Assembly: GCA_030037185.1 (NCBI GenBank)
Contig: JASHRR010001081.1
Location: forward strand, 1 to 7,006
DNA from: Xanthobacteraceae bacterium
Lineage (GTDB): Bacteria > Pseudomonadota > Alphaproteobacteria > Rhizobiales > Xanthobacteraceae
Reading direction: 5' to 3'
DNA: 7,006 nucleotides
The translations under genes were made by a program, and so were the position numbers. Every line of letters begins with the position of its first letter. Within the stretch, counting starts at the first letter, position 1. Below the pieces are notes generated by a model that saw only the letters and a program-made list of their open reading frames with translations, ran no database searches and had not been told where the DNA came from. This document shows, one piece after another, positions 1,960 to 6,070 of this stretch.

Positions 1960-2310
1960 ATGCCGTTCGCGTTCCCGACCGGTGGCGGCAGAATGATCGT
2001 CGGTATCGCGGCGAGCTGCGGGCCGCACAGCGGGCCGCAAGCCTCGATATATTCTGCCGCCAAAGCTGCAATCATCGTCTTCAGCCAATCGCTTGCCCAG
2101 GAAGTCGACCCACACGGCATTCGGGTCAACTCAATCGCACCCGGTAACGCCGAGGCTCGCTGGAAAAAGCCCGAGCCTGTGCGCAGTCCGCTTGGCCGCG
2201 CAACGACCGGCGATGATATCGGGCGCGCGGTCGCCTTCCTGCTCTCCGACGACGCAAGCCACATCACCGGAAGGTGCCTCGACCTCTCCGGTGGCACGAC
2301 GCTACATTGA
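1960..2310 (+). pseudogene. Truncated short-chain dehydrogenase/reductase (SDR), C-terminal half
   Basis: The 116-codon open frame holds only the catalytic and C-terminal part of a classical NAD(P)-dependent SDR. Visible are YSAAK (Y31, K35, the Tyr-x-x-x-Lys pair), QSLAQEVDPHGIRVNSIAPG (strand after the active site), a PLGRATTGDDIGRAVAFLLS segment, and the family ending HITGRCLDLSGGT. The cofactor-binding TGxxxGIG Rossmann region and the NNAG motif, about 110-130 residues, are absent and were not found upstream. Counting back from Tyr31, the usual catalytic Ser position falls on Ala18, with Ser19 beside it, so even the active site may be damaged. A GAGGA at 1951-1955 precedes the ATG, so the fragment could be translated, but a half-SDR is unlikely to work. 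It ends 56 bases before the amidase start and may once have shared its transcript. Confidence 0.72.
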
Positions 2311-2355
2311 GACTGCGCTCAGCGCGCGACGCGCCGGCCACCGCCGGCCGGAAAC

Positions 2356-2362
2356 GGAGGAG
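2356..2362 (+). promoter_or_regulatory. Ribosome binding site of the amidase gene
   Basis: GGAGGAG lies four bases before the ATG at 2367. It decides the start: the open frame continues upstream to 2274, overlapping the SDR relic, but only the 2367 start has a Shine-Dalgarno sequence and places a signal peptide at the N-terminus. Confidence 0.8.
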
Positions 2363-2366
2363 AGTC

Positions 2367-4337
2367 ATGTGGAGTAAACCCACTGCCACGGTGGCGATCG
2401 TGCTGACCGTATGCGTCGTGGCTTCGGCGGAAGCGCAATCGCCTGCCGCAACCAGTGTGAAAAAATTCGAAGTCGTCGAAGCGACCATTGAGGATATACA
2501 AAGCGCCATCAAGGCAAGGCAGATCACGGCCACCGAGTTGCTCGGCATGTATCTGGCACGCATCAAGGCCTTCAATGGAACTTGCGTGAATGAACCGCAG
2601 GGAATTCTCGGCCCCGTCACACCGATCCCGCACGCCGGAAGCATCAACGCGCTGATGACGCTCAATCTGAGGCCTGCGGCGCGCAAGGCGTGGGGCTTTG
2701 ACAATCGCAAGGCCCGCAGCATGACCGACCAGGTCGACGACGACCCGAACAAGCCGGACGCGCTCGAGGTGGCGGCCGCGCTCGACGAGCATTTCACCAG
2801 AACGGGCCAGTTGATCGGCCCGCTACACGGCGTAGTGTTGAGCATCAAGGACCTGCTCGATACCTACGACATGCGCACGACGGGCGGCGCAGACGCCGAC
2901 TATGCCGATGACCGTCCGCCGCGCGACGCCACCCTGGTGAAGCGCCTACGGGAGGCCGGCGCCATCATCCTGGCGAAGGCCAATCTCGGCGAATATGCCT
3001 CCGGCAGCCGCAGTGCGTTTGGTGGAACCATGTGCAATCCCTATGACACCGCACGCGATGTCGGCGGCTCAAGCGGAGGCTCGGCATCGTCGGTCGCGGC
3101 GAACCTCGTAACGTGCACGATTTCGGAGGAAGGCGGCCCATCGATCCGCATGCCCTCGAGATTCAACAACGGGGTGGGCCTCTCGCAGTCGCAGGGACTG
3201 GTCAGCCGGGATGGAATGATCGGTGGCGGCGGCCTCAACGATCGAAACGGCGCGGCCTGCCGCACCGTGCAAGACGTTGCCCGCATCCTTGACGTCATCG
3301 CCGGCCATGATCCCGCCGATGACCTGACGGTCTACAGCGTCGGCCGGATTCCGAAAGGCGGTTATGCTCAGTTCGCAAGAGAAACCCGCCTGCAGGGCAT
3401 CCGAATCGGCGTCGTTCGCGAGTTCATGGACAAGAAGCTCTTCACCGCGGCTGACCATCAGTCGATCGATATCATCGACACAGCCGTCGACGACCTTCGC
3501 AAGGTCGGCGCCACAATCATTGATCCCGGCGAGGGCGGCACGCTGTTTCAAGGCTGCATTGACCAGCACATCCCCCGCAACCTCAACGCGCTCTTCATCC
3601 GGCAGTTTCCGGCGCTGTTCCCGGACGGTGCCGACCACATCTCGGCTCTGGTGGAGCTCTACGCCGATCCGTCGCGCGTTCCGGCCAAGCTGACGATCCG
3701 CGATTTCGGCAAGACTGGGGATGCGCTCGGCGAGAGCAAGTATTACTTCAACCGCTATCTGAGGAAGCGCGGCGACGGGAAGATCAAGAACCTGACCGAC
3801 CTCATCAACAAGTCGCACTACTATACCGACGAGTTCGGCAGGGACACCAGGTTCCGCGATGTCAAGACGGTCCTGCAGGAGACCAACAAGGCCACGACCC
3901 TCGATCTGCGGGACCGGGATTTTGGGCGGCTGGCGATCCAGCAGACCGTGATGGAATGCCTAGCTGTGCTCGATCTCGATGCCGTGACCTATCCCACGGG
4001 GAATATTCCGCCGGCCCTCATCAAGGCCCCCGTCGAGCCGGAGGTCAACGGCCGATCGCATCAGGCCTGGACGCTGCTCGGGACCATGGGTTTTCCAGCC
4101 ATCACTGTCCCGGCGGGATTCACCACCGAAGTCTTCGATCGTGTTCGCGATGCCGGTGCTCCCGGCGGCACACGCCTGGTCGGGCCGGTTCCGGCAAGCC
4201 TGCCGGTTGGGATCGATTTCCTCACCATGCCGTTCGGCGAACCCATGCTTTTCCGGATCGCCTCGGCCTACGAGGCGGCCACGCATCATCGCACGTCCCC
4301 GCCGGAGTTTGGGCCTTTGAACCAACCGAAGAACTGA
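2367..4337 (+). CDS. Secreted amidase-signature family hydrolase
   Basis: Intact 656-residue serine amidase that should hydrolyse a carboxamide to acid and ammonia or amine; the substrate cannot be read from sequence. Residues 1-23 form a signal peptide: a Lys, a hydrophobic run IVLTVCVVAS, and an AEA cleavage site before QS, so the enzyme is probably periplasmic. The amidase domain spans roughly residues 40-640. The Ser-cisSer-Lys triad is visible: Lys161 in VVLSIKDLLDT, the cis-Ser in GGSSGGS (S235/S236), and nucleophile Ser259 in EEGGPSIRMPS. Pro258 between the Gly pair and Ser differs from the textbook TGGSIR and appears typical of a subgroup that also carries QGLVSRDGM downstream. At about 656 residues it is longer than GatA-type amidases (about 480-500), with extra N-terminal and central segments (e.g. 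near residues 75-135). No frameshift or internal stop. It stands alone as a healthy gene between pseudogenes and an insertion sequence. Family call is firm, specific function unknown. Confidence 0.92.
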   Translation: MWSKPTATVAIVLTVCVVASAEAQSPAATSVKKFEVVEATIEDIQSAIKARQITATELLGMYLARIKAFNGTCVNEPQGILGPVTPIPHAGSINALMTLNLRPAARKAWGFDNRKARSMTDQVDDDPNKPDALEVAAALDEHFTRTGQLIGPLHGVVLSIKDLLDTYDMRTTGGADADYADDRPPRDATLVKRLREAGAIILAKANLGEYASGSRSAFGGTMCNPYDTARDVGGSSGGSASSVAANLVTCTISEEGGPSIRMPSRFNNGVGLSQSQGLVSRDGMIGGGGLNDRNGAACRTVQDVARILDVIAGHDPADDLTVYSVGRIPKGGYAQFARETRLQGIRIGVVREFMDKKLFTAADHQSIDIIDTAVDDLRKVGATIIDPGEGGTLFQGCIDQHIPRNLNALFIRQFPALFPDGADHISALVELYADPSRVPAKLTIRDFGKTGDALGESKYYFNRYLRKRGDGKIKNLTDLINKSHYYTDEFGRDTRFRDVKTVLQETNKATTLDLRDRDFGRLAIQQTVMECLAVLDLDAVTYPTGNIPPALIKAPVEPEVNGRSHQAWTLLGTMGFPAITVPAGFTTEVFDRVRDAGAPGGTRLVGPVPASLPVGIDFLTMPFGEPMLFRIASAYEAATHHRTSPPEFGPLNQPKN

Positions 4338-4382
4338 GTTTGTCCACCGGCCCGCCGGCCGACCCCCCCTACATGAAGCGAT

Positions 4383-4411
4383 TTTCCACTGGGGCGTGGC
4401 CATCATATAAT
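4383..4411 (+). promoter_or_regulatory. Sigma-70-like promoter at the left end of the IS110 element
   Basis: A perfect TATAAT at 4406-4411 stands out in GC-rich surroundings, with TTTCCA at 4383-4388 as a partial -35 (TTGACA expected) and an ideal 17-base spacer. In IS110 elements the -10 lies in the left end and the -35 is supplied by the right end after circularisation, so the weak -35 here may be host flank. It sits directly before the folded leader and about 190 bases before the transposase start. Confidence 0.5.
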
Positions 4412-4413
4412 TT

Positions 4414-4578
4414 GGCGCTGTCGGCACGGAGGTCGTTGCTTCTTGGTGCGGGAGAGCCCGTTTACCAGTTGACCTTTGGCACCTCGAACACCCCCACTGA
4501 AGCCAAGCGGCGGCACCGCCGCTGCCGGAGCCCGTTTTCTAGAGTTCATTCGTGAGAGGTCCCCACGCCGACAGCGCC
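4414..4578 (+). ncRNA. Candidate IS110 bridge RNA
   Basis: GGCGCTGTCGGC at 4414-4425 is the exact complement of GCCGACAGCGCC at 4567-4578, giving a 12-bp stem that closes a domain of about 165 nt; two more U-G pairs can extend it. Inside are two arms. Arm 1 (4428-4477): GGAGGTC with GACCTTT, an internal loop, TTGGT with ACCAG, then CGGG-AGAG-CCCG. Arm 2 (4481-4560): ACCTC with GAGGT and GAAC with GTTC, enclosing a perfect AGCGGCGG-CA-CCGCCGCT hairpin at 4506-4523. IS110 elements are known to encode a bridge RNA of about 180 nt in this position, with loops that recognise target and donor DNA. The position, size and multi-arm fold fit. I could not run a covariance model; the start from TATAAT would fall near 4417-4419, slightly inside the stem, so the exact 5' end is uncertain. 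Confidence 0.5.
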
Positions 4579-4598
4579 GGTGTGAAAGGGGAAAGACG

Positions 4599-5846
4599 AT
4601 GGACGTGATGCATGAGCGGGGTGGCCGGTCTTGACGTGCACAAGGAGACGGTCGTCGCCTGTGCACGGATCGTGGCCGAACGGCAAGGCAACCCGGGAGT
4701 GCCGCACATTCGACACGACGACGTCCGGTCTCCAGGCCTTGCTGACTTGGCTGACGGAGAGCGGGTCCACCCATGTGGGGATGGCGGCGACCGGGGTCTA
4801 TTGGAAACCGGTGTGGAATATCCTGAGCGATGCCACGTTCGAGCCGATGCTGGCCAGTGCGGCACACATCAAGAACGTTCCCGGCCGCAAGACGGACATG
4901 AACGACGCCATGTGGATCGCCGATCTGGTGAGTTGCGGATTGGTCAAGGCAAGCTTTGTTCCGGAGCTCCGGGAGCTGCGTTCGCTGCTGCGTGGCCGCA
5001 AGCAGCTTACGCGCGAGCAGACCAGCCACGTCCAGTGATTCAGAAGACCCTGGAAGAGGCCAACATCAAGCTCGACTCAGTGATCAGCGATGTCATGGGC
5101 CTCAGCGGCCGCCGGATTCGAGGCGATGATCAAAGGTGTCAGAGATCCGTTCAAGTTGGCCGATCTCGCCCACCACCAAATCAAGGTGAGCCGCAAGCAG
5201 CTGTACGATGCGCTGCATGGTCGGTTGACCGATCACCATCGGTTCATGTTGCGGCTCTATTTGCGGCAGCACGATGCTTTGGCGGACGCGATTGCAGAGA
5301 TCGATCAGCAGGTCGATGCTGCGATTCCCAAGATGGACGCGGAGATGGCGGCCGCTCAGGCCACCTTTCGCACCCTGATGAGTCTTTTATGCACAATACG
5401 AAGTGTCAGCGATTTGGCGGCGAAAACCATCCTCGCCGAAATCAGCGTATGGGGCGTTTCCCGACCGCGGGTCAGCTGCTGGCGTGGGCCGGCATGTGTC
5501 CGGGGCAGAACGAAAGTGCCGGTAAACGCAAGTCATCGCGCCTGCGCAAAGGCTCCCCCTCGCTCAAGACGTTGCTGGTGCAGTGCGGTTGGGCAGCCTC
5601 TCGCAAGAAGGACAGCTACTACAAGGCGCAGTTCAACCGCCTGCGCGGCAGGCATGGCGCGAAGAAAGCGATCTGCACCGGGGCCGCTTCGATGCTCACA
5701 TGTTGAAAAACGGCACGGAACACCGGGATCTCGGTGCCAACCAGTTCGATCGCCGTTCCACCGAAATCAAAGCCAGGCGCCTGGCAGCCCAGATCGCCAA
5801 GCTAGGCTTCGAGGTCGAGATCCGCCCGCTGCCGGAAGCCGCATAA
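4599..5846 (+). pseudogene. IS110-family transposase, multiply frameshifted
   Basis: DEDD (RuvC-like) transposase/recombinase relic. The natural start is ATG at 4599 (MDVMHER), preceded by AAAGGGGAAAG; an extra G in the G-run at 4618-4621 already shifts the frame. Pieces in order: GLDVHKETVVACARIV; then, after a shift near 4675, KATRECRTFD, GVYWKPVWNILSD, PGRKTDMNDAMWIADLV and SFVPELRELRSLLRGRKQLT; a stop at 5036-5038; IQKTLEEANIKLDSVISD; shift near 5118; AMIKGVRDPFKLADLAHHQI to AKTILAEIS; shift near 5447; FPTAGQLLAWAGMCPGQNES and GKRKSSRLRKGSPSLKTLL; shift near 5700 with a small deletion; then HMLKNGTEHRDLGANQFDRR to the TAA at 5844-5846. About six lesions, so no full protein is made. The usual MEATGVYW motif reads MAATGVYW, removing the likely catalytic Glu. 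The C-terminal SAGK serine motif is retained. Confidence 0.9.
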
Positions 5847-6070
5847 CACAAGCCGCATGCACCGTTCTAGTGGCAACCCAATCATCCCGAAAGATCCGAT
5901 GCCTGAAGTTCGATCGTGGGTTCGAGCCCGCCAAATCGCATGGGCCAAGAGCGGGAGGCTAAGGCCATGAAATCGAGGGGAAATTTCTTCCCTCAGATTC
6001 ATTTCAAGCCACGGATTCCGGAACGCCCGCCCTATGATTCGAAGATTTTGCTTGCCACGGTAACCTCATC
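5847..6070. other. Non-coding flank right of the IS110 transposase
   Basis: Probably holds the element's right end and host flank. A 35-codon frame starts at ATG 5967 after a good GGGAGG (5953-5958) but ends at a TGA just before the winged-helix relic and has no recognisable domain; it may be that relic's decayed N-terminus (YDSKILLATVTSS resembles the family's stretch before TYDD). GGGTTCGAGCCC near 5918-5929 recalls a tRNA T-arm, but no tRNA can be folded around it. Confidence 0.4.

Follow-up and report, generated by a model that had tools for sequence, protein, structure and literature searches.

Comparison of a non-coding leader in a 7,006-nt stretch of DNA from a Xanthobacteraceae bacterium (contig JASHRR010001081.1, hereafter the window) with its counterparts in related insertion sequences indicates that it very probably represents the bridge RNA of a dead IS110-family element (~4339-5870), in which arm P2 would form the target loop and arm P3 the donor loop. 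A preliminary description, made from the letters of the window alone, had proposed such an RNA; the proposal is borne out by matches of guides to flanking DNA and to the right end of the element, and by covariation of the fold. The same comparisons suggest that the order in which the RNA of intact relatives reads the two target halves is the reverse of that known from the family's best-studied member.

Boundaries and relatives of the element

The ends of the element, its core dinucleotide and the features discussed below are given in Table 1. AG was found as the core at both the left and the right junctions of the alphaproteobacterial elements; since the scan for right ends demanded AG, the independent evidence for this core comes from the left junctions and from three Sphingobium copies. 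In Firmicutes relatives the cores, read by eye, are A/T-rich. Boundaries drawn from the Sphingobium copies alone were rejected, the AAAGTAG common to these copies being target and not element. Alignment with relatives establishes a left end at 4337-4339, upstream of position 4414; a left end downstream of that position is what the preliminary description had named as refuting a bridge RNA. The non-coding part of the right end amounts to 24 nt in the window.

Table 1 Features of the IS110-family element and of its leader in the window
Feature	Position	Strand	Basis
IS110-family element	~4339-5870	+	Left-end and right-end comparison with relatives
Left flank (left target half), ending in core AG 4337-4338	4331-4338	+	Alignment of left ends
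Left end (LE), non-coding, 260 nt, up to transposase ATG at 4599	4339-4598	+	Left-end consensus in relatives; three Sphingobium copies at different sites
Place of left subterminal inverted repeat (GAAAC-type box in relatives), altered in window	4375-4379	+	Comparison with relatives
TATAAT, predicted -10 box	4406-4411	+	TATNNT at same spacing in 9/16 leaders
Closing stem P1, 5' strand (GGCGCTGTCGGC), conserved part 4417-4425	4414-4425	+	16-leader alignment
Predicted bridge RNA, ~160 nt, with predicted ends	4417-4575	+	Fold, covariation, covariance model, -10 box
Arm P2, 5' strand, partner 4471-4474	4431-4434	+	Alignment pair count
Putative right-target guide (RTG), complementary to right-flank top strand; 6/8 Watson-Crick and one wobble with 5869-5876	4436-4443	+	Guide-flank tests in two sets
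Inner hairpin of P2; five counted pairs invariant in 16 leaders	4444-4460	+	Alignment pair count
Left-target guide (LTG), same sense as left flank in relatives; unmatched to the window's own	4461-4468	+	Guide-flank comparison, free scan
Arm P2, 3' strand	4471-4474	+	Alignment pair count
Arm P3, 5' strand, partner 4556-4560	4481-4485	+	Alignment pair count
Inner hairpin of P3; two-sided changes in all five counted pairs	4508-4524	+	Alignment pair count
Left-donor guide (LDG), same sense as the element's right end	4535-4542	+	Guide-right-end comparison
Arm P3, 3' strand	4556-4560	+	Alignment pair count
Closing stem P1, 3' strand (GCCGACAGCGCC), conserved part 4567-4575	4567-4578	+	16-leader alignment
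IS110-family transposase pseudogene	4599-5846	+	ORF list, domain matches, alignment with relatives
Right end (RE), finishing in TAG, core AG 5869-5870	5847-5870	+	Right-end comparison with relatives
Right flank (right target half)	5871-5878	+	Right-end and flank comparison

The left core overlaps the stop codon (4335-4337 in the list of open reading frames) of an ORF that occupies 2274-4337 directly upstream of the element and, going by a short match to an annotated amidase, looks like an amidase; an uninterrupted (empty) site of the window's insertion was not found in the genomes and plasmids searched with this amidase-like gene. The gene matched one plasmid, over 8% of the query, and 134 of 242 genomes of one genus, the matches listed all being weak and short. 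Upstream of the latter, at 1960-2310, lies an ORF among short ORFs in several frames which, by eye and going by a motif, resembles the C-terminal part of a short-chain dehydrogenase. Downstream of the element, positions 5915-5935 (GTGGGTTCGAGCCCGCC) resemble a tRNA T-arm by eye; ARAGORN found no tRNA in the window.

In 29 elements, the longest match between subterminal inverted repeats measured 4-10 bp, with a mean of 6.24 compared to 5.10 in shuffled sequences, and none of 20,000 shuffles reached as high a mean. Many of these repeats are of 5-6 bp, near the shuffled mean, and three of the 5-letter ones lie away from the conserved box; repeats 10 letters long occur at loci L037, L019 and L125. 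Their placing is unequal, ~30-40 nt from the left tip and 12-17 from the right. At locus L088 (positions 2930-3000), the right end is duplicated in tandem over 30 bp, which yields two candidate ends, and a sequence like the expected repeat follows the second copy only.

Matches of DEDD_Tnp_IS110 (PF01548) and Transposase_20 (PF02371) to separate pieces of the broken gene downstream of the leader confirm the earlier assignment of the element to the IS110 family; intact relatives of the element encode transposases of ~410-423 aa (423 aa in several). When species genomes were scanned with the N-terminal piece of the transposase, 73 loci were obtained, 16 of them in records titled Alphaproteobacteria or families thereof (L001-L014, L065 and L068), and the leader itself gave matches above the nhmmer inclusion threshold in 14 loci. 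Further genome searches, in each of which the centre genome is counted, returned matches in 24 of 391 genomes (five at E < 1e-20, the rest short), 12 of 347, 1 of 347 and 3 of 385; a search with the RNA model matched 2 of 33 genomes, and a plasmid search with the leader alone gave no match. Close relatives came from records titled Acetobacteraceae, Rhodopila, Azospirillaceae, Telmatospirillum, Sphingobium and Caulobacteraceae, and from one Bradyrhizobium MAG. On the records searched, the lineage of the element is sparse and not specifically rhizobial. Its earlier description as a rhizobial IS110 lineage was too narrow, as relatives are spread over other families of Alphaproteobacteria and the RNA is also present in Acidobacteria and Firmicutes records.

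Fold and covariation of the leader

The TATAAT hexamer, the exact 12-bp complement, the two arms and the inner hairpin that had been pointed out in the preliminary description are all present in the sequence; the arms occupy 4431-4474 and 4481-4560, and the hairpin lies near 4506-4524. Folding of the window leader gave -80.2 kcal/mol over 191 nt with a z-score of -2.88, 2 of 200 shuffles folding as well, a moderate signal from a single sequence. RNAalifold applied to 16 leaders returned a closing stem round two arms, each with an inner hairpin. The 31 named pairs of this fold were formed in 92.8% of 488 cells of the alignment, compared to 34-46% when the partners were slid by 1-3 columns. Two-sided changes affected 13 of the 31 pairs, a number reached by none of 500 shuffles, and 36 cells, compared to 10.8 in shuffles and above all 500 of them. 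The compensatory pairs are distributed between arm P3 (3), the P3 hairpin (5) and the closing stem (5); the inner hairpin of P2, being invariant, is uninformative on covariation either way. Covariation in related leaders, the check that had been proposed for the fold, is thus observed. The window forms every one of the 31 modelled pairs, with G-U at two of them.

The perfect 12-bp closing stem of the preliminary description exists in the window, but its conserved part is the inner 9 bp. Two of the three outermost pairs are unpaired in 10/16 and 12/16 sequences and the remaining one in 4/16, and all 12 pairs form only in the window and in L010 among the 16 leaders; the 12-bp stem was accordingly rejected as a conserved feature. 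A TATNNT hexamer is found 5-6 nt ahead of the conserved stem in 9 of the 16 leaders, two other rows being too short to show it, compared to 0.8 expected from shuffles. The transcript therefore probably begins at the first bases of the stem.

An Rfam scan of the window gave no match up to E 1. A covariance model built from 18 alphaproteobacterial leaders, three rows of which (L122, L124 and L139) are without part of the closing stem, was run on 45 loci hand-chosen as distinct elements outside the model, and 21 of these gave a match to the RNA with an E-value of 0.01 or lower. Seventeen of these 21 matches came from Acidobacteria, Firmicutes or, in one case, Brocadia records, and all except that at L024 lay upstream of the transposase on its strand (20/21).

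Guides in the two loops and alternative readings

The variable stretch that follows the inner hairpin of P2 and ends in AG repeats the letters just outside each element's own left end. Across 24 elements, truncated leaders (L120 and L123) and those with an unparsable guide or flank (L065, L127 and L138) being omitted, this left-target guide agreed with the left flank at 5/5 letters in 17, at 4/5 in four, at 3/5 in two and at 0/5 in one, the window. With the place of the guide fixed by the pattern used, 19 distinct guides matched 82 of 95 letters, where the shuffled mean was 32.7 and the best of 200,000 shuffles reached 60. A free scan of whole leaders put the best match at this same place alone in 18 of the 24 elements, tied in five and elsewhere in one, again the window; among the 145 places scanned it scored a z of 9.3, the next best scoring 2.6. 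The shuffles leave shared ancestry in, which matters least for flanks; given that the flank lies outside the element, shared ancestry is unlikely to produce the match. The three copies in Sphingobium sp. 15-1, which share 1,430 identical bases and are inserted at unrelated sites, are all preceded by AAAGTAG, the letters of their own guide.

The guide TTGCGAG is carried by L013, L088, L111, L091 and L065, and the four of these whose left flank is covered by the sequence (all but L065) sit behind TTGCGAG at a palindromic repeat. In the four genomes with TTGCGAG-guided elements (G001, G002, G335 and G053), the uninterrupted 30-bp target repeat was found in 42, 198, 26 and 6 copies at up to 3 mismatches, and the reversed-pattern control in none. 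IS621, for comparison, inserts at REP elements. Separately, the left flanks of several copies (L001 2577-2668, L112, L089 and L090) resemble the right end of a sister element (GTTTCTTGTTAG, GTTTCTTTCTAG); L112 and L089 lie on contig C679 of genome G139, where three consecutive matches share a strand. In such cases it seems that a copy's target guide fits the donor end of another copy, which would lead to tandem stacking.

In the donor arm, the variable stretch after the inner hairpin of P3, likewise ending in AG, repeats the element's own right end. Counting the obligatory AG, this left-donor guide shared an unbroken match of 7 letters or more with the right end in 17 of 20 elements, and 15 distinct guides scored 110 compared to a shuffled mean of 60.5, the best of 200,000 shuffles reaching 89. 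A right-donor guide of the expected kind was not found in comparisons of the left end with leader segments, and the tip of the left end displayed no complementarity to the donor arm in the single comparison completed. In the same sense, the left end matched the 5' side of the donor arm in the non-alphaproteobacterial set (0/10,000 shuffles as high; 19 elements) but not significantly in the alphaproteobacterial set (p 0.087; 20 elements). Two further signals, each from one of 20 tests, were a same-sense match of the left end to the left-donor segment in the non-alphaproteobacterial set (p 0.0002) and a match of the reverse complement of the left end to the left-target segment in the alphaproteobacterial set (p 0.0023). 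With both sides of these comparisons belonging to an element of shared ancestry, the signals may reflect descent rather than pairing. The same-sense match of P3 5' letters to the left end ~20 nt inside the tip (e.g. CACAACGAA) is visible in L036, L028, L044, L020, L048, L055, L062 and L019, and is possibly either an unusual right-donor guide or a product of common descent.

The 5' side of P2 was compared with the right flank in two sets of elements. In 17 alphaproteobacterial elements, own pairs scored 82 compared to 72.5 in shuffles (p 0.0014; 0.005-0.019 without the core letters), using the first of the two right-end copies of L088; with this right end corrected, the values became 0.0006 and 0.009-0.016. 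L138 was left out of the first test, and L011 and L111, with fewer than six matching right-end letters, were left out as well. In 21 Firmicutes and Acidobacteria elements, the right ends and guide positions of which were hand-chosen and six of which are related Acidobacteria, own pairs scored 85 compared to 72.8 (p 8e-5). Other segments also gave low values: an upstream segment (p 0.03-0.04) and the left-guide side (0.048) in the first alphaproteobacterial test, 0.02-0.04 in the corrected one, and two segments (0.006 and 0.02, each in one of three settings) in the Firmicutes and Acidobacteria set, the latter two being taken as chance among 21 tests. In the main settings, the 5' loop of P2 was the sole segment below p 0.01 in both sets. 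The right half is apparently read loosely, since the right flanks of the three Sphingobium copies all differ. The letters compared thus also favor a right-target guide 5' of the P2 hairpin, if more weakly. With this guide 5' and the left-target guide 3' of the P2 hairpin, the order would be right guide, hairpin, left guide, and since the left-donor guide too follows its hairpin, the reversal seems to extend to both loops.

That the RNA instead follows the order of IS621, with its left guide 5' and its right guide 3', and that the apparent reversal is a misreading, is very unlikely. The right-target signal is indeed short and moderate, and values of p 0.02-0.05 were in some settings also obtained on the 3' side of the inner hairpin; yet the strongest signal of all, that of the left-target guide, lies 3' of the invariant P2 hairpin, where the free scan places it as well, the left-donor guide is likewise 3' of its own inner hairpin, and the 5' loop of P2 alone stands out in both sets in the main settings. 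A stable stem-loop directly ahead of the transposase ATG would also fit an mRNA-leader regulator of the transposase, acting by attenuation or by masking of the start site, in place of a guide RNA. Loop letters that track DNA outside the element would, however, be needless for such a regulator, and with the guide letters following each element's own flank this explanation was rejected as extremely improbable.

The copy in the window is a relic as judged from its letters: its transposase is broken, its left-target guide unmatched and its subterminal repeat, of which 4 letters only are left, unrecognisable. Compared to the intact relative L010, its coding region harbors eight indels, six of them frame-shifting, in agreement with the earlier statement that the element is dead. 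The complete failure of its left-target guide, the only one among the 24 elements, indicates that the copy has decayed or been displaced; any of three events would account for it, namely rearrangement after insertion, mutation of the guide and insertion off target. The last 6 of the 8 letters of its left-donor guide still match the right end (5865-5870). The preliminary description had held the RNA to be better preserved than its own transposase, which was not upheld: at sites invariant in eight relatives, the window is substituted at 8 of 88 in the leader and at 31 of 528 in the coding region, where 11 more are deleted (42/528 altogether; no leader deletions), and its leader is less identical to each of the eight relatives than its coding region is. 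Selection on the window's RNA for use in trans by an intact relative, which the complete set of modelled pairs and a right-target guide still fitting the right flank would favor, is thus very unlikely in the face of a leader hit at invariant sites at least as often as the coding region and of a left-target guide that misfits its flank. We see no sign of this RNA having been kept after the protein died.

A left-end RNA with apparently turned loops

By analogy with characterized systems, we infer transcription, RNA ends, recombinase binding, a circular form and recombination as follows. Transcription of the RNA in living relatives would be driven from the -10 box and begin at the first bases of the closing stem, which would hold P2 and P3. 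The 3' side of P2, repeating the left target and core AG, would pair with the bottom strand, and its 5' side, complementary to the right target and core, with the top strand. P3 would serve as the donor loop, its 3' side repeating the right end of the element, and the recombinase would use the RNA to join the RE-LE junction of the circular element to the target at the AG core.

As described for IS621 in PMC11208160 (Durrant 2024) and PMC11208158 (Hiraizumi 2024), a DEDD transposase is preceded by an RNA in the left end, which has one target and one donor loop and carries left guides in top-strand sense that cover the dinucleotide core. In IS621, however, the left guide (A50-U58) precedes the stem loop and the right guide (G77-G80) follows it, whereas here the inner hairpins are followed by the left guides and, in P2, preceded by the right-target guide; the core is CT in IS621 and AG here. 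Unlike that of IS621, which uses the RE-LE junction, the promoter here is probably independent of this junction, since the -10 box is situated 67 nt inside the left end. The transposase is of 423 aa compared to 328 aa for the solved IS621 chain, the best-matching stretch falling in the C-terminal part.

Similarly to the seekRNA of ISEc21 (IS110 type; Siddiquee 2024, PMC11187229), the guide RNA derives from an upstream non-coding region; the top-strand match lies 3' of the bottom-strand match in ISEc21, but 5' of it here. The latter order is that given in PMC11187229 for the IS1111 members ISEc11, ISPa11 and ISKpn4, the right-target side of the likeness being moderate here. In some relatives the subterminal inverted repeats (up to 10 bp) exceed the length of those in the IS110 group, for which PMC11208160 gives 2-3 bp, compared to 7-17 bp in IS1111. 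In contrast to IS1111, in which a transposase of 330-350 aa is followed by an RNA in the right end, the RNA here is in the left end, the transposase is of ~410-423 aa, and the repeats are unequally placed relative to the tips. No text on loop order in the long-transposase IS110 subgroup was found in the literature searched; a figure of six further structures in PMC11208160 (ISPpu10, ISAar29 and ISHne5 among them) may show the reversed order.

On the sequences compared, this lineage thus has the guide order of IS1111 in the position, the left end, of IS110. The bridge RNA is real and well supported; with the copy in the window dead, its interest lies in the layout in living relatives. Whether the long-transposase (~410-423 aa) IS110 lineage of Alphaproteobacteria, Acidobacteria and Firmicutes represents a third bridge-RNA layout, combining a left-end RNA, both loops turned as in IS1111, a closing stem and subterminal repeats of intermediate length, seems to us evenly balanced; such a layout would stand between the two groups, whether as an intermediate that still lives or as a solution reached separately, and in place of the IS621 scheme the donor loop may read the left end via the same-sense segment ~20 nt inside the tip. 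IS110 and IS1111 carry their guide RNAs at opposite ends and read them in opposite order, and their origin from a common ancestor is the question at stake. A left-end RNA with the IS1111-type order would mean either that loop order and RNA position change independently or that this lineage is a link between the two groups. It would also provide another likely type of programmable recombinase, with an AG core and with guides that can be read from natural insertions, 19 distinct target guides being already at hand.
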